From assembly GCA_900696595.1 (NCBI GenBank), contig CAADGT010000119.1:1-43932 (forward strand): 43,932 bases of DNA, given 5' to 3'. Positions 2,745 to 41,160 of this stretch are shown here, piece after piece. The translations under genes were made by a program, and so were the position numbers. Position 1 is the stretch's first letter, and each line of letters begins with the position of its first letter. The notes below the pieces were generated by a model that worked only from the letters and a program-made list of their open reading frames with translations, made no database searches and was not told where the DNA came from. The stretch is from an uncultured Chloroflexota bacterium (GTDB lineage Bacteria; Chloroflexota; Anaerolineae; Anaerolineales; Villigracilaceae).

Positions 2745-5030
2745 CTAATACCTGCCCCTTTTCACCTCAAATTCAGGGTTCGGCAAATCGTCCTCCCGCG
2801 CCGGAAAGACCTGCACGGCGCACGCTTTGAATTCGGGGATTTTCGCCTGCGGGTCGAGCGCGTCGTTGGTGAGCAAATTTGCGGCGGCTTCGTGAAAATG
2901 CCAGGGGATGAAAACCACGCCGACGGTGGTCTTCTCCGTCACGGTGGCGCGCAGGACGACTTCGCCGCGTCTGCTCTGGACTTTGACCGGGTCGCCGTTT
3001 CTGATTCCATGAATCTCCGCGTCGGCCGGATGAATCTCCACGCGGGCTTCGGGGTAGGTTTCGTTTAGCGCGGAGTTGCGCGTCATGGAACCGCCGTGCC
3101 AGTGTTCGAGCAGTCTTCCGGTGGTGAGGATGAAGGGATATTCGTCGTCCGGCTCTTCGCGCGCGGGGACGTAATCGAGCGGGTGAAATTTCCCTTTGCC
3201 GCGCGGGAAGGATTCGGTGAACAGCGTCGGCGTGCCGGGGTGATCGAGAGTCGGGACGGGGTAGATCAATCCCTCTTTTTCAATGCGTTCGTAGGTAATG
3301 CCCGCATAATCTTGATTCACGCTTCCCATCTCGCGCAGAATCTCTTCGGGGTGGGAATATGCCCAATGGGCGGTATCCAGCCCGAGGCGCGATTCGAGGC
3401 GCAGGGCTAAATCGCAGATGATCTGCCAGTCGGGGCGGGCGTTTCCTCGCGGCGGGTGCGCGGCGCGGACTCGTTGTACGCGGCGATCCGTATTTGAGAA
3501 CGTGCCGTCTTTTTCCGCAAATGGCGTGGCGGGCAGGAAGACATCCGCAAACGCGCCGGACTCGTTGATGAAAATATCCTGCGCGACGAGAAATTCCAGG
3601 CGCTGCATGTGTTTGCGCGTTTCGTTGAGGTTCGGTTCGGACATCATCGGGTTTTCGCCCATGATGTACAGCGCGCGGATCCCGCCTTCGTGGGCGTGAC
3701 TCAAAATTTCGGTGGTGGTGAGCCCGAGTTTGAGACTCAACCCGCCTGCTTCGATGTTCCAGCATTTTTCCCATTGGGCGCGGTTTTCGGGGTTGTCCAC
3801 GCGCATGTAGCCGGGGTAATGAAACGGCATCGCGCCCATGTCGCTGGCGCCCTGCACGTTGTTCTGTCCGCGCAGGGGGTTGAGCCCCGTGCCGTCGCGC
3901 CCGACATGGCCGGTGAGGAAGGCAAGGTGGATGATCGCCATGGCGCTGGCTGTGCCGTGCGAAAGTTGCGAGATGCCCATGCCCCAGTAAATGGCGGCGT
4001 TTCTGGCGTTGGCGTACAGACGCGCGGCTTTGCGAATGTCCTCGGCGGGGACGCCGGAAATTTCTTCGGCGTATTCGGGCGTGAATTTTTCGAGCGATTC
4101 GAGAAATTCGTCCAGGTTTTCTGTGCGGCTGTTGACGAATTCCCAGTTGACCAAATCTTCTTTCACGATGACATGCGCCATGGCCGAAAAAACGGGGACG
4201 TTCGTGCCGGGTTTGAGCGGCAGCCAGAGTTCAGCCATGTCCGCCAGGTCAATGCGGCGCGGGTCGGCGACGATCATCTTCGCGCCGTGTTTCATCACCG
4301 CTTCCTTCATCTGGAGCGCGATGATGGGATGATTTTCAGATGTGTTCGAGCCGGTGACGATGAACACGTCGTTCATTATGACCTGGCTTGCGGTGTTGCT
4401 CATGGCGGAGGAGCCGACGGCTTGCTGAAGCGCGACCACCGAACCGGCATGGCACAGGCGCGTGCAATGATCCACGTTGTTGGTGCGGAAGATGGCGCGG
4501 TACATTTTTTGCAGGAGGTAGTTGTCTTCGTTGGTGGCTTTGGCGCAGCAATAGACCGCCATCGCGTCCGAGCCGTCGCGCTTGTAGATGCGGGTCAGGT
4601 TGTCGGCGACGATGTTTAGGGCGGTCTCCCAGTCGGTTTCGACCCAGTCCCAGGAAGACAATAGATGACTAGAGACTGGATGACTAGTGGTTTCACCATT
4701 CTCTATTCTCTGCTCTCCAGTCTCTTTCCGTTCACTAATCTCAAATCTCTGTTCTCTATTCTCCGGTCTTGGTTTTCCTTCCAACAAATACCTTCTCGCC
4801 AACGGCGTTGTGACGCGTTTGGAGTGATAGACGAAGTCGTAGCCGAAGCGCCCTTTGACGCACAGGTTTCCGCGGTTGACGGGCGCGTCGAACGGCGAGG
4901 TGACTTTGAAGATGAAGTCGTCTTTGACGTGCAGTTGGAGGTTGCAACCCACCCCGCAATATGGGCAGGTGGTCGAGACTGTCCTGTCTGCGACCACCCG
5001 ATTGGGATTAAGCGGAACAACGGCTCTCAT
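2745..5030 (-). CDS. fdhA: Formate dehydrogenase catalytic subunit, cysteine form
   Basis: This is a 761-residue molybdopterin (Mo or W bis-MGD) oxidoreductase that should oxidise formate to CO2. The N-terminal [4Fe-4S] site is Cys22, Cys25, Cys29 and Cys57 (CPYCGVGC, NLCVKGRFG). The metal ligand is Cys193 in VDHCTRLCHAGS, at the position held by selenocysteine in its upstream paralogue, followed by the His expected in formate dehydrogenases. Cofactor-binding segments GRDGTGLNPLRGQNNVQGASDMG, GENPMMSEP and the C-terminal domain (TTGRLLEHWHGGSMTR) are intact. Residues about 85-127 are an insertion encoded by a heptad-repeat array (4656-4772) that keeps the frame. The ATG at 5030 has GAAGGAG upstream. 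It follows the Sec paralogue by 67 bp on the same strand and probably shares its electron-transfer subunits. Confidence 0.93.
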   Translation of the reverse strand: MRAVVPLNPNRVVADRTVSTTCPYCGVGCNLQLHVKDDFIFKVTSPFDAPVNRGNLCVKGRFGYDFVYHSKRVTTPLARRYLLEGKPRPENREQRFEISERKETGEQRIENGETTSHPVSSHLLSSWDWVETDWETALNIVADNLTRIYKRDGSDAMAVYCCAKATNEDNYLLQKMYRAIFRTNNVDHCTRLCHAGSVVALQQAVGSSAMSNTASQVIMNDVFIVTGSNTSENHPIIALQMKEAVMKHGAKMIVADPRRIDLADMAELWLPLKPGTNVPVFSAMAHVIVKEDLVNWEFVNSRTENLDEFLESLEKFTPEYAEEISGVPAEDIRKAARLYANARNAAIYWGMGISQLSHGTASAMAIIHLAFLTGHVGRDGTGLNPLRGQNNVQGASDMGAMPFHYPGYMRVDNPENRAQWEKCWNIEAGGLSLKLGLTTTEILSHAHEGGIRALYIMGENPMMSEPNLNETRKHMQRLEFLVAQDIFINESGAFADVFLPATPFAEKDGTFSNTDRRVQRVRAAHPPRGNARPDWQIICDLALRLESRLGLDTAHWAYSHPEEILREMGSVNQDYAGITYERIEKEGLIYPVPTLDHPGTPTLFTESFPRGKGKFHPLDYVPAREEPDDEYPFILTTGRLLEHWHGGSMTRNSALNETYPEARVEIHPADAEIHGIRNGDPVKVQSRRGEVVLRATVTEKTTVGVVFIPWHFHEAAANLLTNDALDPQAKIPEFKACAVQVFPAREDDLPNPEFEVKRGRY
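4656..4772. repeat. Heptad-type degenerate repeat array inside fdhA
   Basis: Consecutive units such as ATTCTCT, ATTCTCT, GCTCTCC, AGTCTCT and later CTCTGTT, CTCTATT and CTCCGGT are 7 nt long. The left part has GATGACTA and GAGACTG. The region replaces nothing visible in the paralogue: it encodes about 40 extra low-complexity residues (Glu/Arg/Ser-rich) between the iron-sulfur domain and the rest of the enzyme, with no stop and no frameshift. Confidence 0.75.
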
Positions 5031-5097: not shown

Positions 5098-7188
5098 TTA
5101 TATCCGCTCGATTTTCACCGCGCTGACTTTGTATTCGGGAATCTTCGCGACCGGGTCCACGGCGTCGCCCGTTAATGCGTTGGCGGGAACTTCGGCGAAG
5201 TGGAAGTTCATGAAGACCATGCCGCGCGGAAGTTTATCCGTCAGGCGGGCTTTGCCGGTCGCTTCGCCGCGCCGGGATGCGACGCGGATCATTTCGCCGC
5301 TGGCAATGCCCAGCCTTTCGCCGTCCGCATCGTTGATTTGAATCTCGCCCTCCGGCACGACCCAGTCGAGTCCCTCCGAGCGGCGGCTCATCGTCCCGCC
5401 GTGCCAGTGTTGCAAAATGCGCCCAGTGTTGAGCGTGAAGGGATATTCGGAGTCGGGATTCTCCATCGGCTCGCGGAAGACCAGCGGGGTGAATTTGCCG
5501 AGTCCGCGCGTGAATTTTTCTTTATGCAGAATCGGCGTGCCGGGGTGATCGGCCGCCGGGCAGGGCCATTGGATTCCGCGTGGATCAAGCCGCTCGTGGC
5601 TGATTCCAGCCAGGGAGGGAGTCAGAGCCGCGATCTCGTCCCACACGGCGGCGGCATCGGCGTAGTTCCAATCCGAGACGGGGCGAATCGCATCCGAAGA
5701 ATTTTTTGCATCCGCGCGGCTGAGGCGTTGTCCGAGGTCGCAGATGATGTCCAGATCGCGCCGCGCGTCGCCGCGAACCGGCAACGCCGCGCGCACAAGT
5801 TGCACGCGCCGCTCGGTGTTGGTGAACGTGCCTTCCTTCTCGGCGAAACTGACTCCGGGCAATACCACATGCGCCAGTTGCGCGGTCTCGTTCAGGAAGA
5901 TGTCCTGCGCGACGAGGAATTCGATTTTCTCCAGCGCCTCTTTCACATGGTTTGTGTTCGGGTCGGAGAGCATCGGGTTTTCGCCCAGGATGTATAGCGC
6001 CTTGATGCGCCCGTCGAGGACGCCGTTCATCATCTCTGTGACGGTCAACCCCGGCTTGGACGGAATCTTCACGCTCGTCTGCCAGGCGTTCTCGAATTTT
6101 GCGCGCGCATTTTCATCCGCCACCTGTTGATAGCCGGTCAGCACATTTGGCAGTCCGCCCATGTCGCACGCGCCCTGCACGTTATTCTGTCCGCGCAACG
6201 GGTTGACTCCCGAACCGGGCTTGCCAAAATTTCCGGTGAGGAGCGCGAGATTCGCAAGCGCCTGGACGTTATCCACGCCGTGCGAGGATTGCGTGATGCC
6301 CATTGCCCAAAAAATGGCCGCGCTTCCTGCCTGACTGTAAACCTGCGCGGCTTCTTCGATCATTTCCGCCGGGACGCCTGTCACATCCTCGCCCCACTGC
6401 GGCGTGGATTCTTTGACGGCCTCCCTCAGCGCGTCGAAGTTTTCCGTCCTCGCGGCGATGAATTCCTCTTTCGCCCATCCGCGCCCGATGATGACATGCG
6501 CCATCGAGTTCAGCAAAGCCACGTCCGTGCCGGAGCGCGGGCGCAGGTGCAGGGTTGCAAAGTCGGCCAGTTCGATCTCGCGCGGGTCAATCAGAATCAA
6601 TTTTGCGCCGCGCTGTCGAACCGCTTTTTTCATCTCCAGGCTGATGACCGGATGCGCCTCGGTGGTGTTGCTGCCGGTGACGAGCAGAACTTCCGCGAGA
6701 TGAATGTCGGCGATGGAGTTGGTCATCGCGCCCGAGCCCAGGGTGGCCGCCAGACCGGCGACGGAACTGGAGTGTCAGAGCCGCGCGCAGTGATCGACGT
6801 TGTTCGTGCCGATCAATCCGCGCGCAACCTTTTGCAGGAGATAGTTTTCCTCGTTCGTGCATTTTGCCGAAAGCAAAAAGCCGATGGAGTCGGGTCCGTA
6901 TTTGTCGCGGATTTCGAGCAGCCGTTCCGCGACATGACCCAGCGCCCCGTCCCATTTTGCGGGGGCGAGTTCGCCGTCCTTCCTCATCAACGGTTTCGTC
7001 AGCCTGTCTTTTGAATGGATGAAGTCATAACCGAAGCGTCCCTTCACGCACAGGTTGCCGTGATTGGCGGGCGCGTCGAACGGCGACGTGACGCGATAGA
7101 CGACGTTTTCCTTGATGTGCAGGTTGAGCGTACAGCCCACGCCGCAGTAGGGGCAGGTGGTGGCGACAATTCGGTCGGGTTTGATCAT
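5098..7188 (-). CDS. fdhA: Formate dehydrogenase catalytic subunit, selenocysteine form (in-frame UGA)
   Basis: This is one gene of 697 codons read through a UGA at 6775-6777, giving 696 residues with Sec138. The N-terminal [4Fe-4S] site is Cys12, Cys15, Cys19 and Cys47. The active-site segment reads NNVDHCARL-Sec-HSSSVAGL, which matches the Sec-His pair of E. coli FdhF. Downstream, the molybdopterin-binding segments (GSGVNPLRGQNNVQGACDMG, GENPMLSDP, NTGRILQHWHGGTMSR) are all intact, so the UGA is not decay. A hairpin fitting a bacterial SECIS follows 12 nt later. The ATG at 7188 has GGAG six bases upstream; a TTG at 7194 is less likely. It is preceded by the HoxU-like and NuoEF-like subunits, so the enzyme is probably a soluble NAD-reducing (or electron-bifurcating) complex. 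It needs SelA, SelB, SelC and SelD from elsewhere. Confidence 0.93.
6746..6762 (-). promoter_or_regulatory. SECIS hairpin of the Sec formate dehydrogenase
   Basis: On the mRNA strand, GUCGCC-GGUCU-GGCGGC forms a six-base stem (one G-U pair) with a GGUCU loop, starting 12 nt after the UGA. The GGUCU apical loop at this distance is what SelB recognises in E. coli fdhF. The residues it encodes (VAGLA) are also conserved, so the signal is embedded in coding sequence. Confidence 0.88.
6775..6777 (-). other. UGA selenocysteine codon
   Basis: The codon lies between CARL and HSSSVAGL, exactly where the paralogue at 2745-5030 has Cys193. Both flanks stay in one frame for the whole length of the enzyme. 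Confidence 0.92.
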
Positions 7189-7204
7189 GTGCAACTCCAG
7201 TGCG

Positions 7205-7246
7205 CAATGCGTAATTCGTTCCTTACGGATCGCGCATTACGAATTA
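7205..7246. repeat. Inverted repeat of CGTAATTCG type at a gene end
   Basis: GCGTAATTCGT (about 7209-7219) and ACGAATTACG (about 7239-7249) are reverse complements, and the interior reads in 7-nt units (minus strand TCGTAAT, TCGTAAT, GCGCGAT, CCGTAAG). The TAA stop of the HoxU-like gene (7244-7246) lies inside one of these units. It fills the gap before the Sec formate dehydrogenase. Confidence 0.6.
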
Positions 7247-7930
7247 CGATTTTCTTCTCTTCCTTCCGGTATTCATCACGCTGATTTCTTCTGCGCTGAC
7301 GCCCTGCTCCAACAAATACTGGCGTTTTGGTTTCAGCGCGCCGGTGGGACAGACTCCCACGCATTGACCGCATAGCACGCAGGTCGTTTCGGGAATGGGC
7401 TTGTCGAAGAATGTGCCGATCTGGGTTTTGAATCCGCGCCCATCGAAATTGATGGCGTAGGTGTATTGCGCGTCCTCGGCGCAGACTTGCACGCAGCGCC
7501 AGCACAGCAGGCATTTCGAGTAGTCGCGGATGTACATCGGGTTGTCGTCCTTGACTTCCGACTCGCGCCGCGCCGCGTCCGGGAAGCGTTCCGCGCTTGC
7601 GCCGTATTCGTCCATCATCGCCAGGACTTCGGGCGCGTCGGACAGGTCCATGGTGGAGGCGAGCAGTTCCAAAATCGTCCTGCGGGCGCGGATAACTCTC
7701 TCGCTTCGCGTCTGGACCTTCATATCCTTCCCGGCTTTGACGATGCACGCAGGCTGGAGCAGTCGCACCCCCTCGATCTCGACCACGCACATGCGGCACA
7801 AGCCGTTCGCCGTCGTCGCCGCGTGCCAGCAGATGGTGGGGATGTCAATTCCATTTTCGCGCGCGGCTTCGAGGATCGTCTTGCCGTCCTCGATGGTTAT
7901 TTCTTTTCCGTCAACAATCAGCGTGAACAT
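7244..7930 (-). CDS. HoxU/NuoG-N-terminal-like iron-sulfur subunit of the formate dehydrogenase complex
   Basis: This is a 228-residue electron-transfer protein. Residues 1-75 are a plant-type [2Fe-2S] ferredoxin domain with Cys34, Cys45, Cys48 and Cys62. Residues 135-200 hold two [4Fe-4S] motifs, Cys140-143-146-150 and Cys184-187-190-194. The stretch between them, where NuoG and HoxU have the His-Cys3 cluster, reads [16 protein letters not shown] and lacks those ligands, so that cluster is probably absent. It should carry electrons between the FMN subunit and the catalytic FdhA. In many NAD-linked formate dehydrogenases this segment is fused to the N-terminus of FdhA; here it is separate. 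A GAGG ribosome binding site precedes the ATG at 7930. It lies between the NuoEF fusion and the Sec FdhA. Confidence 0.9.
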
Positions 7931-7983
7931 AAAACCTCATATGGGCAGTTGCGACAAACAGGGGGAACAACGAAGTAAAATTT

Positions 7984-8047
7984 CATCCTTCATCCTTCAT
8001 CATTCGTCCTTCATCCTTCATCCTTCATCCTTCATCCTTCATCCTTG
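7984..8047. repeat. Tandem heptad array (ATCCTTC)
   Basis: The 7-nt unit ATCCTTC is repeated about nine times with a few variants (ATCATTC, GTCCTTC). On the minus strand it reads GGATGAA, and the TGA stop of the NuoEF fusion (8039-8041) is part of the first unit. The array fills most of the 108-bp gap before the HoxU-like gene. Confidence 0.9.
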
Positions 8048-9688
8048 AAACAGTTCGGGCCACAACTTCATCGCGCTCAACACCGCGCTTGCCGCCGTCT
8101 GCCCAAGCCCGCACAGCGAAGCGTCCGTCATCGTCCAGCCCACATCCTGCAAGCGGACAAAGTCGCCGCCGCGAATTTCGCCCTCCGCCACGCGGTCGAG
8201 GATCTCCTTTTGTCTTTGCGTGCCCATCTGGCAGGGGTAGCATTTTCCGCAGGATTCGTGGGCGAAGAAGCGCGCCAGACTTTTCAATACCTGCCGCATA
8301 TCGCGGGTTTCGTCGAAGACCATCACCACGCCCGAGCCAAGCGGCAGCCCGGATTCGCGCAAGTCTTCAAACGTCAATTTCACATCGAGATGCGCGGAGG
8401 TTGCAAACGCTCCCGCCGCGCCGCCGAACAGAACCGATTTCAGCGTTCCTCCATCCGCCACGCCCCCGGCCATTTCGAGCAGGTCGCGCAGGGTGACGCC
8501 GAATGGAACTTCGTAAACGCCCGGTCGCGCCACGTCGCCGGACAGACAGAACAATTTCGGTCCCGGCGATTTTTCGGTGCCGATCTTGCGGTATTCCGCC
8601 GCGCCCATCGAAATAATGAGCGGCACATTGCACAGCGTTTCGACGTTGTTGATGACGGTCGGTTTGCCGAACAAGCCGTGAGTCGTCGGGAAGGGCGGCT
8701 TCACACGCGGAAAACCGCGCTTCCCTTCGATGGACTCGAACAGCGCAGTCTCCTCGCCGCAGATATAGGCGCCCGCGCCGACCCGGATTTCAATATCGAA
8801 GTCTTCCAAATAGCCCGCTTCGCGCGCTTCGTTCACCGCGTTTTCCAAAACAGGAACAATATACGGATATTCTCCGCGAATATAAATGTAGCCTTTCGTC
8901 GCGCCGATGGCGTGCGCCGCAATGCACATGCCCTCAATGGTTCGATGCGGATCGTCCAATAACAGGATGCGATCCTTGAACGTGCCAGGCTCGGACTCAT
9001 CCGCATTGCAGACGACATATTTGGCGTCGCCCTGCGCCTTGAGCGCGCCCTCCCATTTGATTCCAGCCGGGAAGGCTGCGCCGCCTCTTCCCACCAGACC
9101 GGAGGCTTTGATCTCGTCCACGACTTTTTCCCGGCTGAGGGTTTTGGCTTTCTTCAACCCGGCGTATTCGCCGTATTTTTTCAGGGAGGTCGTTTCGCCG
9201 CCGCAATTTTTGGTCAGCAGACGCAACGAGCCGTAAACCGGCGAAGGCGGGATCCCCTTCTCGTTGACGACGCTCACGCCGTTGTCCGTCGTCCACACGG
9301 CTGGGGCGTGGTCGCAAAGCCCCAGGCACGGGCTCGGCTCAATGGTCAGGGACAGGTCTTCGGGAGTCTGATGCGGTTGAAGTCCATGCCGAGCGCGCAG
9401 GCGGGAGAGGATTCCATCCGCGTCTTTGAGCGCGCAAGCCGCATCCGTGCAAACGCGGATGACGCGCTTCGAGGTCGGCTTATCGTAGAAGAGGGAATAG
9501 AATTCGATCACTCCGTGCGCGTCGGAAAGCGGAACGCGCAATGCGCGGGCGATCTCGGCGGCGACCGGCTCCGGGACCCAGCCGTAAATATTTTGAGCCG
9601 CGTGCAAGGCTGGCAACAGCCCCGAGCGGCCCAATGGGATGTATTTTTCGATTGCAAGTTTGACGGGGGTAAGGTCGAAGGCGTCCAT
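8039..9688 (-). CDS. Fused NuoE-NuoF-type NADH:acceptor subunit of the formate dehydrogenase complex
   Basis: This 549-residue protein joins two complex I-like modules. Residues 1-140 are NuoE-like, with the thioredoxin-fold [2Fe-2S] ligands Cys80, Cys85, Cys121 and Cys125. The rest is NuoF-like: [10 protein letters not shown] (NADH/FMN region), [25 protein letters not shown], and the C-terminal [4Fe-4S] motif [12 protein letters not shown] with a distant SLCGLG Cys. It should pass electrons between formate dehydrogenase and NAD (or bifurcate with ferredoxin). ATG 9688 is preferred because TGGAG lies upstream and NuoE homology begins there. An in-frame GTG at 9805 and ATGs at 9793 and 9751 would add a non-conserved extension. 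It is the first gene of the minus-strand locus and is divergent from the GntR gene. Confidence 0.9.
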
Positions 9689-9805
9689 GATACTGGCTCC
9701 ATCTGCGAGTATAACCGAACTCCATGGCGGGCAAAATTGATATTCGTCCATGAATCCGCGCATTTCTTCGCGTTGGGCGAAGAGTCTTTTCATGAGGCGC
9801 GCCAC

Positions 9806-9834
9806 TTCCGAAATCTGCAGGGATTATATATAAT
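9806..9834 (+). promoter_or_regulatory. Probable leaderless promoter of the GntR gene, with AT palindrome in the divergent gap
   Basis: TATAAT at 9829-9834 lies eight bases before the ATG at 9843. TTCCGA, a weak -35 match, is 17 bp upstream. Transcription would start at or next to the start codon. The -10 is part of a perfect 12-bp palindrome ATTATATATAAT (9823-9834), which gives a second TATAAT facing the formate dehydrogenase locus. The palindrome could also be an operator for the GntR protein; that is inference. Confidence 0.6.
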
Positions 9835-9842
9835 GTACAATC

Positions 9843-10583
9843 ATGGCGTCAATGGCGAAGGAACTCACCCATAAACCCTTGAGGGAAGAAATCTACGACG
9901 CGATCCACCGCAAGATCATCGCCGGTAGATACGCGCCCGGCGACTGGCTCAGACAGGAGGAGATCGCCGGACAGATGGGCGTGAGCATGACGCCCGTGCG
10001 CGAAGCGTTGGATTTATTGGTGGCAAAAGGCATTGCGGAGCGTGTGCCTTATCGCGGCGTGTGCGTGCGTCAAATGTCGGAGAAGGATGTCGTGGAAGCC
10101 TATGGGATGCGGCTTTTTCTGGAGGCGATGATCGCCCGCGAAACTGCGCTGAACATCTCGCCGGAACAGATCGCAAACCTCGAGTCCATCCTGGCGGAAA
10201 TGGACAGGCATGTTGACTTGAACGAAATGCCGCAGGAACGCCAGCTAAGCCGCGAGTTCCACGCCGCGATTGCGGAGGCTTCCGGAAACAATTTACTGAT
10301 CCAGTTGTACGCCATCGTCTCGAACGCCTTCCCCGACTGGTTGTTGTACGAGGCTTTGTTCCGCAAACCGGAACTGGTCTCGAGCAGCGTGGCGCAGGCG
10401 CACAGCGAACATGCCGCCATCCTGTCCGCTTTCAAAAAGCGCGACCCCGACCTGGCGATGAAGGTCTCGCTGGAGCATGTGATGGAATCGGGCAGGTGGC
10501 TGGAGAATTACCGCAACATTCCCTCGAAACTGTTGAGGGAGAAAGAAAAACAAGTCGCGCACTTGATGAAGAAAGCAAAATAA
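9843..10583 (+). CDS. GntR-family (FadR/FCD subgroup) transcriptional regulator
   Basis: This is a 246-residue one-component regulator. A winged helix occupies residues about 10-78 (IIAGRYAPGDWLRQEEIAGQ, then VSMTPVREALDLLVAKG). An all-helical FCD ligand domain follows, with His residues typical of its metal site (REFHAAI, HSEHAAIL, LEHVMES). FCD regulators usually sense small organic acids or amino acids. It sits between the divergent formate dehydrogenase locus and the corrinoid/MttB genes that follow it in the same direction after 46 bp, so it is well placed to control both. An alternative start at 9852 exists. The ligand cannot be inferred from sequence alone. Confidence 0.9.
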   Translation: MASMAKELTHKPLREEIYDAIHRKIIAGRYAPGDWLRQEEIAGQMGVSMTPVREALDLLVAKGIAERVPYRGVCVRQMSEKDVVEAYGMRLFLEAMIARETALNISPEQIANLESILAEMDRHVDLNEMPQERQLSREFHAAIAEASGNNLLIQLYAIVSNAFPDWLLYEALFRKPELVSSSVAQAHSEHAAILSAFKKRDPDLAMKVSLEHVMESGRWLENYRNIPSKLLREKEKQVAHLMKKAK

Positions 10584-10629
10584 GAGGCGGGCGGCGATCG
10601 CCTGCCGAACCAACATTCAAGGAGGCTGT

Positions 10630-11289
10630 ATGTCTGACGAACTCGAGAAATTGTACAAGGATATGGCGCAGAGCATCATAGACGGGGATTCGGATGTGTC
10701 GGTGGAATTGGCGAAGAAATCCATCGAACTGAACATTCCGCCGCTGGACGCCATCACAAAAGGATTTGTGGTCGGCGTGAACTACATCGGCGACCAGTTC
10801 GGCGCGGGCGAAGCCTTCTTGCCGGAACTGGTGATGGCGGGCGAAGCGATGAAAGCCGCCGTCGCCGTTCTCGAGCCGGAATTACTCAAACTGGGCTCCG
10901 CCCGCGAGACGATGGGCAGGGTTGTACTGGCCACCGTCGAAGGCGACATTCACGAGATCGGTAAAACGCTGGTCGGCACCATGCTCAGCGCCTCCGGCTT
11001 CGAAGTGACCGACATGGGCGTGGATCAACCCGCCGAAAAGATCATCGGCAAAGCGCTGGAGATTGACGCGCAACTCATCGGCTTGAGCGCCCTGCTCACA
11101 ACCACGATGGTGCGCCAGCGAGAATTGATCGAAGAAATGGACAAGGAAAACCTGCGTCCGCGCATCAAGGTCATGGTCGGCGGCGCGCCCATCACCCGCG
11201 ACTGGGCGACCAAGATCAACGCCGACGGCACATCGGAAGACGCGGTCGGCGCGGTGCAGTTGGCCAAACGCCTGGTGGGCAAGGCCTAA
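10630..11289 (+). CDS. Corrinoid (cobalamin-binding) methyl-carrier protein, MttC/MtgC-like
   Basis: This 219-residue protein has the two-part layout of methyltransferase corrinoid proteins. A helical cap domain covers about 1-90 (GVNYIGDQFGAGEAFLPELVMAGEAM). A Rossmann B12 domain follows with D106-x-H108-x-x-G111 (EGDIHEIGKTL), in which His108 is the lower cobalt ligand, then SALLTTTM and VMVGGAP. It would accept a methyl group from an MttB-type enzyme and give it to a methyl-H4folate methyltransferase. It lies 12 bp upstream of an MttB gene and has a strong AAGGAGG site. It is the only corrinoid protein in the window, although six MttB paralogues are present, so it may serve several of them. 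Confidence 0.93.
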   Translation: MSDELEKLYKDMAQSIIDGDSDVSVELAKKSIELNIPPLDAITKGFVVGVNYIGDQFGAGEAFLPELVMAGEAMKAAVAVLEPELLKLGSARETMGRVVLATVEGDIHEIGKTLVGTMLSASGFEVTDMGVDQPAEKIIGKALEIDAQLIGLSALLTTTMVRQRELIEEMDKENLRPRIKVMVGGAPITRDWATKINADGTSEDAVGAVQLAKRLVGKA

Positions 11290-11301
11290 GAAAGCGGTTT
11301 C

Positions 11302-12774
11302 ATGAGACCGAAGTTAACCCTGCTCAGCGACGAAATCATCGCCCGCATTCTGGCAGAAGCCTACGAGCTGCTCCTGCGCCCCGGAATCAAAATTCAAAAC
11401 GAAGAGGCGCGCGACCTGCTTCGACGCGAGGGCGTTGCCATCAACCCCGAAACGCATGTTGCACAGATCCCCGCTTCGCTCGTTCAACGCGCGCTGGAAA
11501 GCGTTCCGCGCGAATTTTTTCTGTACGATTTACACGGCAATCCCGCCGTCCAATACGGCGGCGACGCGGTTCACTTCGACCCGGGTTCCTCCGGCATCAC
11601 CATGCTCAACCCGGAAACGCTGGAGCATGAGACTACCGAAACCGAACATCTCATCCGATTGTTGAAAGTCGCCGAGCAGATCCCGCAATACGACGCGCAA
11701 TCCACCGCCGTCATCTGCCACGACGTTCCCAAAGAGATACAAGATTCGTATCGCCTCTATCTGGCATTGCTTTACTCCAAAAAACCCATCGTCACCGGCG
11801 CATTTACCAATCAGACTGTGCGGGAGATGATCGAAATGCTGGCGCTCTTTGCGGGAAGCCCCGAAGCCGCCCGCGAAAAACCGCGCGCCATCTTCGACGT
11901 CTGCCCGGCTCCGCCGTTGATCTGGTCAAACTTCGGCGCGGGAAACCTCATTCAACTGGCCCGCTCCGGCATCCCGGCGGAGATCGTCTCCGTCCCCCTG
12001 GCGGGCGCGGCGTCCCCAGTCACCATGCTTGGGACGGTCACCCAACACACAGCGGAATGTCTCGCCGGGATCACCATCCATCAACTCGCGCAACCCGGCT
12101 CCCCCATCGTCTGGGGCGGCGCGGCGGCGATCTTCGACATGAAAAAAGGCGCAACCCCGATGGGCGCCATCGAAACCGCCATGCTCGATTGTTCGTACGC
12201 GCAAGTCGCCAAGACTCTTGGAATGCCCACGCACACCTACCTCGGCGCAACCGATTCAAAACTGGTGGACGCGCAAGCCGGGCTGGAAAGCGGCATCACC
12301 GCCATGGTCGGCGCGTTGAGCGGAATCAACATGATCTCCGGCTCCGGCATGTTGGACTTCCTCGCCTGTCACAGCGCCGAAAAACTCGTCATAGACGCGG
12401 AAGGCATCGCCATGGCAAAGCGCATGATCGGCGGCGTCAAACAGCACACCGACACGCTCGCCACCGGATTCTACGACGACAAGATCAACTTCAAGGGCGG
12501 CGACTTCCTCAAACAAAAGATCACCATGCAACTCTTCCGCGAAGAGCAACACCTGCCCAGCGACGTGATTGACCGCAACTCGACCCGCCAGTGGAAAGCC
12601 TCCGGCTCGCTGGACGCCTTCGGCAGGGCCAAACTGCGCGTGAAGGAATTACTCGCCTCCTACCGCCGCCCCGAACTGGATTCTGACCAGATGGCGCGAC
12701 TCCACTCGTACATGCTCGACCTGGCAAAAAAGGCCGGGGTGGAAGAGTTGCCCAGGTTGGATGATGGGAAATAG
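11302..12774 (+). CDS. MttB-family (non-pyrrolysine) corrinoid methyltransferase, paralogue 1
   Basis: This is a 490-residue member of the trimethylamine methyltransferase superfamily (TIM-barrel MttB/MtgB). Family features are the N-terminal LSDEIIARILAEAYELL helix, the PASLVQRALESVP segment, the central CPAPPLIW, and a block AECLAGITIHQLAQPGSPIV. The frame is open throughout, with no UAG, so it lacks the pyrrolysine of true trimethylamine MttB. It is therefore expected to act on a quaternary amine or another methylated compound. It is paired with the corrinoid protein 12 bp upstream, which suggests the two form a functional methyltransferase. Its TAG stop (12772-12774) falls within the first unit of a heptad array. 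It is the most divergent of the six paralogues at the C-terminus (FKGGDFLKQKIT). Confidence 0.92.
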   Translation: MRPKLTLLSDEIIARILAEAYELLLRPGIKIQNEEARDLLRREGVAINPETHVAQIPASLVQRALESVPREFFLYDLHGNPAVQYGGDAVHFDPGSSGITMLNPETLEHETTETEHLIRLLKVAEQIPQYDAQSTAVICHDVPKEIQDSYRLYLALLYSKKPIVTGAFTNQTVREMIEMLALFAGSPEAAREKPRAIFDVCPAPPLIWSNFGAGNLIQLARSGIPAEIVSVPLAGAASPVTMLGTVTQHTAECLAGITIHQLAQPGSPIVWGGAAAIFDMKKGATPMGAIETAMLDCSYAQVAKTLGMPTHTYLGATDSKLVDAQAGLESGITAMVGALSGINMISGSGMLDFLACHSAEKLVIDAEGIAMAKRMIGGVKQHTDTLATGFYDDKINFKGGDFLKQKITMQLFREEQHLPSDVIDRNSTRQWKASGSLDAFGRAKLRVKELLASYRRPELDSDQMARLHSYMLDLAKKAGVEELPRLDDGK

Positions 12775-12808
12775 GGAATAGAGGGTAGAGAATGGAGATT
12801 AGAGAGGC
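12767..12808. repeat. Tandem heptad array (GGGAATA type) overlapping the MttB stop
   Basis: There are six units in strict 7-nt phase: GGAAATA, GGGAATA, GAGGGTA, GAGAATG, GAGATTA, GAGAGGC. The TAG stop of the preceding gene spans the first two units. The same unit type makes up the longer array at 16765. Confidence 0.85.
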
Positions 12809-12846
12809 GAGCGCTGGAAATACCCCAACCGCGCAGGAGAGTCCCC

Positions 12847-13389
12847 GTGTTTAAGAAGATCGTCAAATTTATTGCAACCTTCATCATTGTCTTTTTTATA
12901 GGGGGAGCGGCCTTGTTCCTTCTCGGCGGGGTTGCCTCGTCGCTGAAAGTCCGCTGTAAATTGCAGGGGGATCAACTTTATACCTGCCAGTCTCATGACG
13001 CCATACTCGGCATCCCATTCACGACGGTTCGCGCAGATCGCGTCTCCGCCGTGGAGCATGAACTCAAGTGCGAAGGCGGCGGCACGACAAAACGGTGCAG
13101 CGACCGCGCGTACTTCATAACCGCCGACGGCGGGCGAATCCTCGTGAGCGGCATCTATATTGACACGGATCAAGTCCCCAAAATGGCGGACGCGCTCAAC
13201 TCCCTCATGGCGGAAAAAACCACGCCGATTGACGCGGCTTTTTCGCCCTCGACGTTCGCCTCGGTGGTCACCCTCTCGGTGTGTTCGTGCCTTTTCATTC
13301 TGTTTATTTTTATCGCATTCATAACGCTGTTTGGCAAGGACGCAAAAGACCTCGAATCCCGCGCGATTGACCTGAGAAGGGCGGGTTGA
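12847..13389 (+). CDS. Unknown membrane protein with two TM segments
   Basis: This is a 180-residue protein with a TM helix at about 8-30 (FIATFIIVFFIGGAALFLLG) and another at about 137-162 (VVTLSVCSCLFILFIFIAFI). Between them is a soluble domain with four Cys (CKLQGDQLYTCQS, KCEGGGTTKRCSD) that could form disulfides on the outer face. The start is GTG 12847 with AGGAGAG upstream. I do not recognise the family. It ends 3 bp before the S9 peptidase frame, so the two are probably cotranscribed and perhaps translationally coupled. Confidence 0.7.
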   Translation: MFKKIVKFIATFIIVFFIGGAALFLLGGVASSLKVRCKLQGDQLYTCQSHDAILGIPFTTVRADRVSAVEHELKCEGGGTTKRCSDRAYFITADGGRILVSGIYIDTDQVPKMADALNSLMAEKTTPIDAAFSPSTFASVVTLSVCSCLFILFIFIAFITLFGKDAKDLESRAIDLRRAG

Positions 13390-13392
13390 CCG

Positions 13393-15168
13393 TTGCTTTC
13401 GCTTGAACAGTTATTGCGCATTCCCAACGTGGACGCTGGGCTGCCCTTCGCCGTCTCGCCGGATGGGAGCCGGGTTGTTTTCTCGTGGAATAAATCCGGG
13501 GCATGGGAATTATGGGAGAGTAGAGGATTAGAAAGTAGAAGAGTAGAGATTAGTTTGCAAGGCGCGAAGTTTTCGCCGCGTTTTTCGCCGGATGGGACGA
13601 AGATCGCCTTTGCGCTGGATCTGGATGGGGGCGAGTCGTATCACATCTGCGTCCATGATTTCACGAGCAACGCTTCCACCGACCTGACGCCGGATATTTT
13701 GTACGCGCATCAACCCAATGTATCGTGGTCGCCGGACGGTCAATCGCTGGCGGTACTTTCCGACGCCAAGGGAATCTTCTCGCTGTATGTTTTGCCGCTG
13801 GATGGGAGCGGAGCGCGAATGATTCGCAACATCTTCCGTCCCTGCTGGGATGCCGCCTGGTCGCCGGATGGCAAGTGGATCGCGGTCGAGTCGGAAGCGG
13901 CGGCGAGCGAGCGCAGTATTCATATCGTGCCGGTGGGCCGCCATAAAGGGAAAGTTCGCGCCATCCAGTTAATGCAGGACGGCAAAGCGTTGAACGCGCA
14001 ACACCCGGCTTGGTCGCCGGACTCCAAGTCTCTGGCGTTTTCCTGCGAAAATGGGGAATGGTTCAACATAGGCTTATTCGATGTCGAAACGCAGGAGATC
14101 GCATGGGCGACGGATTCAACCGGCGATGACACGCAACCCTGCTGGTCGCGGAGCGGGGACGTTATCGGCTGGGTACACAGCGAGGGGGCGAGGACCAGGT
14201 TTCAGTTTAGAGAGAGAGGCGGCGCCATTCGTGAGATCAAAGTCGGGGAGGGAGTTCACGCTCACCCGCAGATCACAGCCGATGGGGTCGTCATCCTGTT
14301 TGAAGGCGCGAATCATCCGCCCGATTTATGGAAGATCGCTCTCGACAGCGGCGAAGCGACTCAACTGACGAAATCGCTCGAGGCGGATCTCAACTTTCCG
14401 CCGCCGGAGGAAGTCTGGTATGCGGGCATGGACGGCGCGCAGGTTCCGGCGTTGTTGTATCGCGGCGCGGGCGATTGCGCGGCGCTCGATATTCATGGGG
14501 GGCCCAACTGGCATTTGCAGTTTTCATGGAATCCTGTTTTGAGTTTGATGGCGCTGCGCGGCTGGACGGTTCTCGCGCCGAATTATCGCGGCTCGACGGG
14601 GTACGGAAAACAATGGCAAAACGCCAGCCGCTACGACATGGGCGGCGTGGACAACGACGATTGCGCGGCGGGCGCAAAATATTTGCTGGAGAATGGGCTT
14701 GCAAAAAAAGTCGCGGTGACGGGCAGGAGTCACGGCGGTTATTTGACGATGACCTGCCTGACGGGCTACCCCGAATTGTTCGCGGGCGGCTCGGCGGTCG
14801 TGCCGTTCTTGAATTGGATCAAGTCGCATCGCGAGTCGCGCGAGGATCTTAAACATTGGAACATCGAGAACATGGGCGACCCGGAAGAGAATAAAGAACT
14901 ATGGATCGCGCGCTCGCCGTATTTCTTTTTGGACAAGGTCGCCGCGCCCGTGCAGTTGATTTGCGGCGAGAACGATCCGCGCTGTCCGGCTTCGGATTCG
15001 ATGGACGCGCGCGACAAACTGGCGGAGTTGGGGAAGGAAGTGGAATTGCTTTTATACGAAGGGGAGGGACATGCGTTTTATAAGATCGAAAATATTGTTG
15101 ATGCGGAAGTAAGGCGGGTGGAGTTTTTGGAGAAGGTATTGGAAAGAGGCGGCGGCGTAGACAGGTAA
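13393..15168 (+). CDS. S9-family (prolyl oligopeptidase / dipeptidyl aminopeptidase-like) serine peptidase
   Basis: This is a 591-residue cytoplasmic peptidase with no signal peptide. The N-terminal two thirds is a beta-propeller with repeated SPDG motifs (FSPRFSPDGTKIAF, VSWSPDGQSLAV, AAWSPDGKWIAV, AWSPDSKSLAF). The C-terminal alpha/beta hydrolase has Ser446 in GRSHGGY, Asp528 in GENDPRCP and His560 in GEGHAFY as catalytic triad. It would cleave small peptides. The start is TTG 13393, chosen because it directly follows the previous stop and no ATG is near. Residues about 41-54 (WESRGLESRRVEIS) are encoded by a purine-rich repeat array within the propeller. The stop TAA lies in an 8-nt repeat array. 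Its place between two MttB genes may reflect peptide or amino-acid catabolism. Confidence 0.88.
   Translation: MLSLEQLLRIPNVDAGLPFAVSPDGSRVVFSWNKSGAWELWESRGLESRRVEISLQGAKFSPRFSPDGTKIAFALDLDGGESYHICVHDFTSNASTDLTPDILYAHQPNVSWSPDGQSLAVLSDAKGIFSLYVLPLDGSGARMIRNIFRPCWDAAWSPDGKWIAVESEAAASERSIHIVPVGRHKGKVRAIQLMQDGKALNAQHPAWSPDSKSLAFSCENGEWFNIGLFDVETQEIAWATDSTGDDTQPCWSRSGDVIGWVHSEGARTRFQFRERGGAIREIKVGEGVHAHPQITADGVVILFEGANHPPDLWKIALDSGEATQLTKSLEADLNFPPPEEVWYAGMDGAQVPALLYRGAGDCAALDIHGGPNWHLQFSWNPVLSLMALRGWTVLAPNYRGSTGYGKQWQNASRYDMGGVDNDDCAAGAKYLLENGLAKKVAVTGRSHGGYLTMTCLTGYPELFAGGSAVVPFLNWIKSHRESREDLKHWNIENMGDPEENKELWIARSPYFFLDKVAAPVQLICGENDPRCPASDSMDARDKLAELGKEVELLLYEGEGHAFYKIENIVDAEVRRVEFLEKVLERGGGVDR
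13515..13555. repeat. Short purine-rich repeat array inside the S9 peptidase gene
   Basis: Units of seven to eight bases (GAGAGTA, GAGGATTA, GAAAGTA, GAAGAGTA, GAGATTA) resemble the heptad arrays at 12767 and 16765. They are read in frame and add a short Glu/Arg/Ser-rich loop to the propeller. Confidence 0.6.
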
Positions 15169-15189
15169 ATAGGTAGACAGGTATTTGGC
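15158..15189. repeat. 8-nt tandem array overlapping the S9 peptidase stop
   Basis: The units GTAGACAG, GTAAATAG, GTAGACAG and GTATTTGG run in phase. The TAA stop of the S9 gene (15166-15168) is in the second unit. Confidence 0.75.
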
Positions 15190-15212
15190 GCGTCTACTTG
15201 TTTACTTAGAAA

Positions 15213-15325
15213 GTGTCTGAAAACTGTCATTTCGACGAGCGGAGCGAGGAGAAATCCTGCGCGCTCGCGGGAAAAGATTTCTCGCCAGCGCTCGAAATGA
15301 CAATGACATGGGTTTTCAGACGCTC
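15213..15325. repeat. Large imperfect palindrome with TGTCATTTCGA arms
   Basis: The left arm (15213-15256, containing TGTCATTTCGACGAGCGGAG and GAGAAATC) pairs imperfectly with the right arm (15276-15325, GATTTCTCGCCAGCGCTCGA onward to TTTTCAGACGCTC). The arms are over 40 bp. This type of palindromic repeat, with TGTCATTTCGA and GAGAAATC, is common between genes in environmental bacteria. No gene is seen in 15169-15361. Confidence 0.75.
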
Positions 15326-15361
15326 TCTTAAATACTTTTATCCCCGAACTCAGGAGAGACC

Positions 15362-16777
15362 ATGGAACCCTTAAAGTTTTTATCGGACGCAGATGTGCAA
15401 GCCATGCACGAAGCGACCTTGCAGGTGTTGAATGAGGCGGGCGTTTTCTGGACGCATAAACCCAGCCTTGAAATTTTGCAGGGAGCCGGATGCGCCGTTC
15501 GGGATAACCGCGTTTTCTTTCCGCCCGACCTGGTGGTGGATTGCATTGCCAAAGCCAATAAGCGGCCTGTGATTCGCGGGCGCAATGGGCAGGTCAACGA
15601 ACTCGGCAATGGCGCGTTGTATTTCCACAACCTCGGCGGGGCGCGCGATGTGTACGACGCCGGGAGCAATACGCGCCGCGCGGCGACCGCGCAGGATTGC
15701 GCCGACGCCGTGCGATTGCTGGACGCGCTGCCGAACTGCAACACGGTCACTCCATTTTTTACCCCGCCCGATGTTTCAAATGAAATGATGTCGCTGCGCA
15801 TGTACCGCCATGCGCTTTCGAATACGGTCAAGCCTGTGCAGGGTCCCGGCATTCAATTCGGTCATGAAGCGCGCTTTGCGGTGGAACTGGCGGCGGTGGT
15901 CGGGACTCCGGCGAATGAATTAACGCTTTCGCTTTCGCCGGTCAGTCCGCTGACGATGCACGACATCGCCGCCGAAGCGATCATGGAAATGGCGAAGTAT
16001 GGCGTTATTCACGCCAACCTGCCCTGCCCCACCGGCGGCGCGACTTCGCCCATGACGATTACGGGAAGCCTCATGCAACAAAGCGCGGAAACGCTTGCCC
16101 CGCTCGTGCTGGCGCAGTTGATCAACCCGGGATGCGGCGTCGTTTACTGCGGACGTTTGGGGATGTTGGAGCCTCGCACCGGGCTGATCTGGGGCGGCGT
16201 CGAGTTGGGTTTATCCTCCGCCGCCACGGTTCAACTCGGACATTTTTACGGGTTCAGCGTCAACGTGTATGGATTCTCGACCAATGCCCACACCCTCGAC
16301 GCCCAAAACGCCTTCGAGCGCGGACTCAACGCCGCCATCCCCGCCCTGGCTGGAGCGGACGAACTCTCCGGCATCGGCGAGATGGAAGCGGGCGTGATGG
16401 GTTCGTTCGCCCAAATGGTTTTGGATAACGAACTGGCCGGCAGTATTCAACGCCTGCGCAAAGGCTTGTCGGCGGACGCGGAACACTTGGCGGTCAATAT
16501 TATTTTGGATGTCATGAACGGTTCGCGCAACTTCCTCGGGCAGAAGCACACCATGAAGCACCTGCGCGGCGGCGAAATGGCGCTGACAAAACTGGCGGAG
16601 CGCAACTCATGGGACGCATGGGACGAAAAACTCAACCGCAAGCAAATGGCGGATTACGCGGTTGAAGAATCCGAACGGATCTTGCGCGAACACGTCGTCC
16701 CGCCGTTGGACCTGGCGCAGGAAGCGGAGTTGGATAAAATTCTAGCGGCGGCGGAAAAGGAGATGGGGAGAGGATAG
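15362..16777 (+). CDS. MttB-family (non-pyrrolysine) methyltransferase, paralogue 2
   Basis: This is a 471-residue MttB-superfamily protein. It shows LSDADVQAMHEATLQVLNEA at the N-terminus, LSPVSPLTM in the middle, the conserved AETLAPLVLAQLINPGCGVV block, and NFLGQKHTMKHLRGG near the C-terminus, which corresponds to the family G-x-x-F-L motif. There is no UAG in frame. AGGAGA precedes the ATG. It is followed by the M20 amidohydrolase and the methyl-H4folate methyltransferase, so it lies in the part of the cluster that would complete methyl transfer to folate. The stop TAG is inside a heptad array. The methyl donor is unknown. Confidence 0.9.
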   Translation: MEPLKFLSDADVQAMHEATLQVLNEAGVFWTHKPSLEILQGAGCAVRDNRVFFPPDLVVDCIAKANKRPVIRGRNGQVNELGNGALYFHNLGGARDVYDAGSNTRRAATAQDCADAVRLLDALPNCNTVTPFFTPPDVSNEMMSLRMYRHALSNTVKPVQGPGIQFGHEARFAVELAAVVGTPANELTLSLSPVSPLTMHDIAAEAIMEMAKYGVIHANLPCPTGGATSPMTITGSLMQQSAETLAPLVLAQLINPGCGVVYCGRLGMLEPRTGLIWGGVELGLSSAATVQLGHFYGFSVNVYGFSTNAHTLDAQNAFERGLNAAIPALAGADELSGIGEMEAGVMGSFAQMVLDNELAGSIQRLRKGLSADAEHLAVNIILDVMNGSRNFLGQKHTMKHLRGGEMALTKLAERNSWDAWDEKLNRKQMADYAVEESERILREHVVPPLDLAQEAELDKILAAAEKEMGRG

Positions 16778-16876
16778 GGGATAGAGAATAGAGAATAGAG
16801 AATAGGGGATAGGGGATAGGGGATAGGGGATAGGGAAACGTAAGCAGTAAACGGTTATCGGTAAGCGGCAAGCGGT
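16765..16876. repeat. Sixteen-unit degenerate heptad array
   Basis: The run reads in strict 7-nt phase: GGGGAGA, GGATAGG, GGATAGA, GAATAGA twice, GAATAGG, GGATAGG four times, GAAACGT, AAGCAGT, AAACGGT, TATCGGT, AAGCGGC, AAGCGGT. It contains two sub-families (GGATAGG and AAGCGGT). It supplies the TAG stop (16775-16777) of the MttB gene and fills the gap to the M20 gene. Confidence 0.95.
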
Positions 16877-16904
16877 AAAATAGGTCGCATAGAAGAGGAT
16901 ACTC

Positions 16905-37881: not shown

Positions 37882-37966
37882 GATTACTCCTTTTGTCCTG
37901 CGCGCAAAAGAGGCGCTATCGTCTGACGGTGTGGGGAAATCTTATTTCAGTTTGTTCTCGCACGGG

Positions 37967-37990
37967 CGCAAACTAAAGTTTGCGGTACGA
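37967..37990. repeat. Palindromic intergenic repeat, GCAAACT family, copy 2
   Basis: CGCAAACT-AA-AGTTTGCG (37967-37984) is followed by GTACGA. The core and the GTAC flank match the copies at 5072 and 39473. It lies between MttB paralogues 3 and 4. Confidence 0.7.
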
Positions 37991-37996
37991 ACCGCG

Positions 37997-39442: not shown

Positions 39443-39472
39443 AGGATATTCCTTCGTGAATTCCGCGCAAAG

Positions 39473-39495
39473 GGCAAATTGAAGTTTGCCGTACG
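39473..39495. repeat. Palindromic intergenic repeat, GCAAACT family, copy 3
   Basis: GGCAAATT-GA-AGTTTGCC (39473-39490; one T-G pair) is followed by GTACG. It is in the same orientation as the copies at 5072 and 37967 and lies just upstream of MttB paralogue 4. The rest of 39491-39647 shows no gene. Confidence 0.7.
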
Positions 39496-39647
39496 CGCAG
39501 TGAAAAATTAAACGTTATACGACTCGCTTGCTTAAGGGGAGTTGATCGCTTGCGGCGGTTGCATTTGTTCCGCCAAAAATCTCTTGCGCCAGGAGGGTTT
39601 ATTTTTCCGGGAAGATCAAAACCCGCTCCTGAAGGAAGAGGTATCGT

Positions 39648-41108: not shown

Positions 41109-41128
41109 AGTGTCTCGCTTATTTTACA

Positions 41129-41159
41129 GTAGAACAAGTCTTTAGACGACTTGCTCTAC
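41129..41159. repeat. 12-bp-stem hairpin between MttB paralogues 5 and 6
   Basis: GTAGAACAAGTC (41129-41140) pairs with GACTTGCTCTAC (41148-41159) with one G-T pair and a 7-base loop. It ends one base before the stop codon of paralogue 6. Confidence 0.7.
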
Positions 41160-41160
41160 C

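Follow-up and report, generated by a model that had tools for sequence, protein, structure and literature searches.

The DNA analysed here (the window) is one contig (C119, 43,932 bases) of the 272-contig, 3.45-Mb genome of an uncultured Chloroflexota bacterium of the order Anaerolineales, in which several genes end inside short tandem arrays of 7-nt units (heptads) or, in one case, of 8-nt units (octads). Analysis of this genome and its relatives reveals that such arrays are a real and widespread feature of the source genome. They are probably dispersed heptameric and octameric simple sequence repeats that have grown by slippage or unequal exchange where they are tolerated and have been filtered by translation. 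The arrays look like a known kind of bacterial repeat shaped by the needs of translation and not like a device directed to stop codons.

Excess of period-7 and period-8 arrays

The source genome was sampled by taking the first 20 kb or less of every fourth contig from C4 to C240 (642 kb, of which 12,872 bases are N). This sample and the window together form the own set of 686 kb, so that the window cases are among its counts. Arrays were detected with Tandem Repeats Finder (TRF; score cut 30 or 40) and with a custom lag detector. At a TRF score of at least 40, the array numbers in the 642-kb sample are 40 for period 7, 19 for period 14 and 14 for period 21; three third-order Markov controls contain 0, 0 and 0 (period 7), 3, 4 and 1 (period 14) and 0, 0 and 1 (period 21). 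The lag detector finds 65 arrays at lag 7 and 12 at lag 8 in the own set, one poly-C run entering both counts, and 0–4 at each of the lags 4–6 and 9–13. It also finds 8 arrays at lag 15 and 7 at lag 18, and when lags 3–32 are compared, 7, 8 and their multiples are prominent. The genome-wide scan for period 7 proposed in an earlier sequence-only reading of the window has therefore given an excess, which includes period 8.

Autocorrelation of the noncoding DNA of the own set is 0.287, 0.277, 0.280 and 0.278 at lags 7, 14, 21 and 28, compared with a background of about 0.255; lags 1–3 are high too, and lag 8 is not prominent by this measure. In the whole genome, three successive GRATAGR units match 51 times and the backwards pattern 2 times, while three successive GGATGAA units match 33 times and their control never.

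For comparison we used 400 kb each of genome G016 and the congener G020, 20 congener blocks (365 kb), 80 loci around NuoEF (the wide set, 1.19 Mb) and 20 stretches of other families (308 kb). For the genus comparison 24 genomes of the source genus were searched, one genome per species being available throughout, and in the named collection the closest NuoEF relatives come from metagenome genomes of Anaerolineales and other Chloroflexota. The wide and congener sets have some genomes in common (L156 and G016:C2 are one contig, judged by length), so that pooled counts are not fully independent; deduplication of the pooled arrays dropped 2, then 4 more rows. Lag-7 arrays number 21 in G016, 14 in the congener blocks, 63 in the wide set and 8 in the other families. 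G020 holds only 4 in its 400 kb, with no clear period-7 excess. Congeners thus differ about tenfold in array density (65 in 686 kb in the own set against 4 in 400 kb in G020), and this range opens the question of what sets the step of seven to a comparative test.

Placement relative to stop and start codons

Genes were called with a purpose-made simple caller, used at a stricter threshold in later analyses; its starts are uncertain and some small genes are wrong. Gaps with N runs were excluded. Noncoding positions account for 43 of 55 arrays. After deduplication, 142 arrays lie in or beside gaps, 133 of them between co-directional, 6 between convergent and 3 between divergent genes, where the corresponding gap totals are 1654, 208 and 235.

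Among the 557 stops of the own set, 15 lie under lag-7 and 5 under lag-8 arrays and none under arrays of lags 4–6 or 9–13 (one gene may count twice). Of its 560 starts, 7 lie under lag-7 arrays, 3 under lag-8 arrays and one each under arrays of lags 6 and 12, and no gene midpoint is covered at lag 7 or 8 (one is at lag 9). Lag-7 and lag-8 arrays cover 19 and 6 of 878 stops and 5 and 0 of 881 starts in the wide set; the corresponding numbers in G020 are 1 and 0 for stops and 1 and 1 for starts.

These counts were compared with random placement of the 46 co-directional arrays of the own set, each within its own gap plus 30 nt. Stop overlaps are not in excess (15 observed, 14.2 expected, P 0.45), whereas start overlaps are depleted (7 observed, 14.3 expected, P 0.006), and the test was repeated after deduplication. 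In the pooled, deduplicated sets 51 stop overlaps are observed against 41.6 expected (P 0.036) and 15 start overlaps against 41.6 expected (P 0.0005). A stop overlap close to random together with a depleted start overlap suggests that arrays are allowed at stops and mostly not at starts. The mechanism that had been suggested from the sequence alone, one that spreads or grows 7-nt units at gene ends, is not supported by the random-like stop overlap of the own genome, nor by the arrays that lie over starts and inside genes. The slight pooled excess at stops may conceivably reflect a weak targeting.

Arrays do supply some called start codons. At L036 (gap 4509–4518) and L044 (gap 5931–5948) a single GGATGAA array covers the stop of one gene plus the called start of the next. 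At four loci of the own genome (L062, L067, L075 and L086) C-rich arrays end at or near the ATG of a called gene, so that no Shine-Dalgarno-like purine run is present there.

Array-bearing gene ends of the window

Five genes of the window had been listed as having the stop codon inside a repeat. Four of them (NuoEF, MttB1, S9 peptidase and MttB2) clearly terminate inside arrays reported by TRF, while the fifth, HoxU-like, ends over two units only. The features are, by window coordinates:

7191–7250, minus strand: end of the HoxU-like gene; a pair of similar 7-nt units, CGTAATT CGTAATG, spans the TAA stop (7244), within a hairpin
7982–8046, minus strand: heptad array GGATGAA; TRF period 7, 9.3 copies, 93% matches, score 116; contains the TGA stop of the NuoEF-like gene
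8039–9688, minus strand: NuoEF-like fusion gene, TGA stop at 8039–8041 within the array; Pfam Complex1_51K and 2Fe-2S_thioredx
11302–12774, plus strand: MttB1, trimethylamine methyltransferase family, TAG stop at 12772–12774; Pfam MTTB
12770–12805, plus strand: degenerate heptad array, consensus AATAGAG; TRF period 7, 5.1 copies, 72% matches, score 37; contains the MttB1 TAG stop
13393–15168, plus strand: S9 peptidase gene, TAA stop at 15166–15168; Pfam Peptidase_S9
15157–15183, plus strand: 8-nt array GTAGACAG; TRF period 8, 3.4 copies, 78% matches, score 40; contains the S9 peptidase TAA stop
15362–16777, plus strand: MttB2, trimethylamine methyltransferase family, TAG stop at 16775–16777; Pfam MTTB
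16769–16835, plus strand: heptad array GRATAGR; TRF (16772–16835) period 7, 9.1 copies, 92% matches, score 86; contains the MttB2 TAG stop
16840–16878, plus strand: second, degenerate heptad stretch 3' of the MttB2 array; lag-7 score 12, the lowest accepted

The HoxU-like product carries Pfam Fer2_4 and Fer4, and its array is weak: TRF does not report it at score 30 and it passes only a lax lag-7 test (score at least 8). The description of all five arrays as phase-perfect is nearly right for two of them and does not extend to the rest, given the match levels of the MttB1 and S9 arrays and the missing TRF report for HoxU. A single 8-nt case had been noticed; it is the S9 array, which pairs with an inverted stretch immediately 3' of it. 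In the GGATGAA array the stop-bearing strand is the sense strand of the NuoEF-like gene.

Strand polarity

The arrays have a strong strand pattern in relation to the flanking genes; the strand tables also exclude arrays that extend less than 10 nt beyond a gene. In the own set, arrays touching a stop are G-rich in sense in 12 cases and C-rich in 3, and those more than 10 nt past the stop in 1 and 14 (Fisher P 1e-4). In the pooled, deduplicated sets, arrays that overlap the stop and keep a distance of over 20 nt to the following start comprise 22 G-rich, 1 C-rich and 1 equal case; among arrays that lie more than 20 nt past the stop and 1–20 nt short of a start, 2 are G-rich, 25 C-rich and 1 equal. 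For the own set alone the G:C ratios are 8:0 over the stop, 7:2 just past it, 0:9 before the start and 1:3 in mid-gap. The other short-gap bins give 1:10 for arrays filling the gap without touching either gene, 7:1 for arrays over both codons and 3:6 for arrays over the start only (two bins).

Stop triplets follow a similar course in the own set, where sense exceeds antisense in 14 of the 15 arrays touching a stop; over all co-directional own arrays the totals are 206 in sense and 184 in antisense. In long gaps, the strength of the lag-7 signal in the 63 nt that follow a stop does not differ consistently from that in the 63 nt that lead up to a start (0.291 and 0.301 in the own set, 0.262 and 0.296 in the congeners, 0.291 and 0.271 in the wide set).

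Unit repertoire and arrays inside genes

The 75 array calls of the own set (homopolymers removed) reduce to 41 unit consensuses, 8-mers included, in about a fifth of the genome. The commonest are GGATGAA (11), TAATTGG (8) and AGAGAGT (6), with GCAGGTT in fourth place. By a count made by eye, 13 of the 41 have no stop triplet on either strand, 24 have one on one strand only and 4 on both; among random 7-mers 36% carry a stop on one strand only. The observation that unit sequence differs between sites and unit length is kept therefore holds well beyond the window. A step length that is held at 7 or 8 with a free sequence speaks for the machinery of DNA synthesis and against any single motif.

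Long arrays contain 2 to 13 different units within one array, with higher-order periodicity in 4 of 17, and between adjacent units of own arrays there are 358 transitions and 183 transversions. Such mixed units and higher-order repeats fit growth by slippage or unequal exchange together with point mutation; they do not fit copying from one fixed template.

Arrays are also present inside genes, where 59 in well-scoring genes of the pooled sets lie at least 45 nt from the gene ends. The numbers inside and outside genes are 57 and 108 at lag 7, 3 and 36 at lag 8, 9 and 10 at lag 15, and 8 and 12 at lag 24. Lag 15 is the sum of 7 and 8 and keeps the reading frame, and unlike lag 8 it is not rare inside genes. 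Three cases are present in the window:

4698–4763, minus strand: degenerate heptads AGAGAAT (66% matches) inside a molybdopterin oxidoreductase gene (2745–5030), in a length-variable loop
13517–13547, plus strand: repeat inside the S9 gene with TAGs at spacings of 8, 7, 8 and 7 (counted by hand), none in frame; the loop length varies among congeners
36108–36135, minus strand: short heptad array inside a coding gene, the sense strand being free of stops

Relatives differ in length in these loops of the S9 and molybdopterin oxidoreductase genes, and there the relative L093 has a 7-residue repeat, QSTVNSN, which equals three heptads. NuoEF orthologues at L094, L095, L101, L108, L120, L122, L154 and L156 carry a TGGACGATGGACGATGG heptad array at about residue 130; it encodes WTMDDGRW-like repeats in about the same protein region in several relatives. 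In annotating these genomes it should be borne in mind that the end of a gene or a flexible loop may consist of repeat DNA.

Turnover between relatives

Comparison of orthologous loci reveals that the repeats vary among relatives at one and the same stop, so that the arrays are not identical. At the MttB2 stop, 20 congener loci have ATCAGTR heptads, TAGTCNNN octads in which the stop codon itself opens the array, GTTGAAG heptads, other elements or nothing; lag 7 is best in 6 and lag 8 in 2 of the 20, with different units. Lag 7 is best at 3 of 18 congener loci for the MttB1 stop and at 2 of 17 for S9, and lag 8 at 1 of 18 for the M20 gene. At the NuoEF stop of 80 Anaerolineales loci, the best lag is 7 in 16, 8 in 3 and 12 in 2. 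Directly past the stop at four MttB 3' ends (L201, L204, L210 and L214) there is a dispersed element, GTCATTGCGAG...GAAGCAATC, and in congeners this element occupies sites where others have heptads.

We also considered whether arrays displace stop codons relative to orthologues. Without stratification, the end position differs in 7 of 17 genes with an array at the stop against 24 of 171 others, and in a second comparison in 21 of 35 against 127 of 445 (window included). The difference vanishes once gene families are taken as strata: in permutations within families, with the window excluded, the congener blocks give 3 observed and 2.2 expected (P 0.39) and the wide set 18 and 18.0 (P 0.61).

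Origin of the arrays

We propose that 7- and 8-nt duplications arise and expand via slippage or unequal exchange during DNA synthesis. They would be tolerated mostly in gaps between co-directional genes, and also at gene ends and in flexible loops within genes, and translation would filter the arrays that survive. Because 7 leaves a remainder of 1 when divided by 3, a heptad that contains a stop codon on its sense strand closes any reading frame within three units (21 nt). An array of such heptads may therefore overrun a gene end without producing a long readthrough protein, with the effect that the gene's stop codon is part of the array. Upstream of a start it would be the C-rich strand that survives, presumably because it is free of start codons and of purine runs resembling ribosome-binding sites. 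The biases over the stop and before the start fit such a filter, and gene ends would in this way shape where heptad and octad repeats may persist.

Several results weigh against this explanation. Where pooled arrays lie 1–20 nt beyond the stop, with over 20 nt left to a start, 13 are G-rich and 3 C-rich. Such arrays need no stop codon, so the stop filter alone fails there, and this bias remains the strongest point in favour of a polar mechanism. Arrays over the stop that end 1–20 nt before the next start are unbiased (7 G-rich, 8 C-rich), which the stop filter alone does not explain either. Mid-gap arrays are also unequal (3 G-rich, 10 C-rich, 1 equal). The sense-versus-antisense skew of stop triplets is weak elsewhere: among arrays touching a stop, sense is ahead in 4 and antisense in 2 for the congener blocks, and in 12 and 7 for the wide set. 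The totals over all co-directional arrays there are 61 in sense and 63 in antisense, and 101 and 116. Intragenic arrays have no clear bias against the stop-bearing strand, 20 of the 59 being richer in sense and 24 in antisense. In G016, lag-7 and lag-8 arrays cover 4 and 1 of 349 stops and 5 and 0 of 350 starts, and in the other families 3 and 0 stops and 3 and 0 starts, so that lag-7 cover of starts about equals that of stops in both. Finally, slippage does not account for the recurrence of units at many sites, nor for the lengths 7 and 8; this step length and the outward G-rich polarity of arrays lying clear of the stop fall outside the proposed explanation.

Maintenance of the arrays for their ability to form RNA stem-loops in gaps is less likely, and on the whole unlikely. 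On this view the G-rich arm would lie at the stop, its C-rich complement would precede the next start, and the hairpin would serve as operon-internal terminator, processing site or protector of mRNA ends. For 33 of 103 arrays a complementary 10-mer is present in the same gap (or as an internal inversion), compared with a mean of 6.3 with other array-bearing gaps of the set (gaps of at least 60 nt), and among the 40 arrays in gaps with inverted 10-mers, 30 have a G-rich first arm, 6 a C-rich one and 4 an equal one. Some gaps of the own genome are inverted arrays almost end to end. At L041 (8665–8978), inverted octads fill a 314-nt gap between two co-directional genes from stop to start; the second of these genes may be CoaD, which it resembles. 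In G016, 8 array gaps out of 13 carry an inverted repeat of at least 10 nt, compared with 24 of the 108 other gaps, and the fold z is below −3 in 11 of 15 array gaps; over all sets such a z is reached by 32 of the 79 array gaps and by 41 of the 160 other gaps. In the window, the HoxU and S9 ends fold well (z −3.62 and −3.22). However, MttB2 folds only moderately (z −2.12) and for NuoEF and MttB1 the arrays fold less well than shuffled versions (z +1.47 and +1.65). In the own genome 7 of 32 array gaps and 47 of 157 other co-directional gaps hold inverted repeats, which are thus no more frequent beside arrays, and a fold z below −3 is reached by 9 of 33 array gaps. For the congener blocks (7 of 14 array gaps, 60 of 126 others) and the wide set (12 of 26 and 100 of 258), inverted repeats are hardly enriched in array gaps. 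The own genome thus does not support a hairpin as the general purpose of the arrays; G016 fits better.

The polarity could also come from a dedicated activity that writes 7–8-nt units, for example foldback or telomerase-like addition of G-rich DNA to 3' ends at breaks in gaps, followed by rejoining. This would predict a G-rich strand running out of both flanking genes and one unit family on both sides. The G-out pattern of arrays off the stop (13 to 3), the excess of complementary matches in the same gap, the G-first arm order and a step fixed at 7 or 8 with free sequence all fit this proposal. However, the 2 to 13 units of a long array are unlike copies of one template, 41 consensuses occur in a fifth of one genome, and the own genome has arrays in gene loops and no targeting of gene ends; we therefore consider it improbable. 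The more specific proposal of an Anaerolineales DNA-writing activity that adds 7- or 8-nt units with the G-rich strand outward from both genes, turning gaps into inverted arms and supplying stops and starts from the added DNA, appears quite improbable.

Selection of the heptads as G-quadruplex elements of the Xanthomonas and Nostoc kind would be in line with the unit length and the strand pattern near stops and starts, which are as described for those repeats (PMC4692102). The unit list speaks against this as a general purpose, since a run of at least three G or C is present in only 9 of the 41 consensuses and absent from the four commonest, GGATGAA, TAATTGG, AGAGAGT and GCAGGTT. Such selection is very improbable, although G-quadruplexes built from two-G runs are conceivable. 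Insertion behind stop codons of a mobile element with heptads as its cargo is also highly unlikely: identical units do occur at many sites of one genome, but no common flank was seen beside the arrays inspected by eye (without an alignment test), units differ among congeners at one stop, and placement in the own genome fits random.

Relation to known heptad repeats

Heptanucleotide tandem repeats of cyanobacteria are known as short tandemly repeated repetitive (STRR) sequences. Within the phylum, Chloroflexus belongs to the class Chloroflexia and not to Anaerolineae. No description of heptads in Anaerolineae was found in titles and abstracts of the open full-text literature, among the matches listed.

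Rehm et al. 2015 (PMC4692102) described GGGAATC and GGGGAYT heptameric repeats in Xanthomonas and Nostoc, which are dispersed, mainly noncoding and scarce between divergent genes, with the G-rich strand in sense within 50 bp of stops (overlap included) and in antisense before starts. Our arrays resemble them in the over-representation of 7-nt units, the mainly noncoding location, the scarcity between divergent genes and the strand pattern. Unlike the repeats as reported there, they comprise 41 consensuses, most of which lack a GGG run, include 8-nt units, also occupy loops of coding sequence and have a depleted overlap with starts; by eye, neither GGGNATC nor GGGGAYT is among the 41 own consensuses. 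The same paper cites three different heptanucleotide units in Calothrix, so that the STRR sequences are alike in being heptanucleotide tandem repeats with more than one unit. The resemblance to cyanobacterial heptads that had been noticed from the sequence is thus supported.

The TAACTGA repeats of marine Beggiatoaceae, some cyanobacteria and Bacteroidetes (MacGregor 2015, PMC4679880) lie mostly directly before start codons. In forward orientation they stop all three frames, and at 13 open reading frames they cover the stop codon of the upstream gene. Both systems have 7-nt arrays over gene ends that close all frames. In contrast, the Beggiatoaceae system is described as one unit, mostly before starts, and TAACTGA is not among the 41 own consensuses (checked by eye). 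Closer in taxonomy are the (GATAGRA)n heptamer satellites scattered in the genome of Chloroflexus aurantiacus (PMC6749651), whose TAG-bearing purine heptads are near but not identical to the GRATAGR family of the window; there a single unit is described, and the term 'stop codon' is absent from the main text.

The stop overlap and the all-frame-stop argument (PMC4679880), the strand pattern (PMC4692102) and heptads in Chloroflexus (PMC6749651) are therefore already published. The many units, the 8-nt class and the depletion at starts look like additions to the known heptad repeats. For the step of seven itself, Mrazek's group has proposed the length touched by DNA polymerase (cited in PMC4692102 and PMC4679880).

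Other repeats and genes of the window

Between the S9 octad array and MttB2, at 15215–15330, the window carries a dispersed element that has 10 more matches in the source genome, 6 of them almost full length with 84–92% identity. Four further MTTB-like matches are present on the minus strand within 36454–42576, at 36454, 38024, 39660 and 41179.

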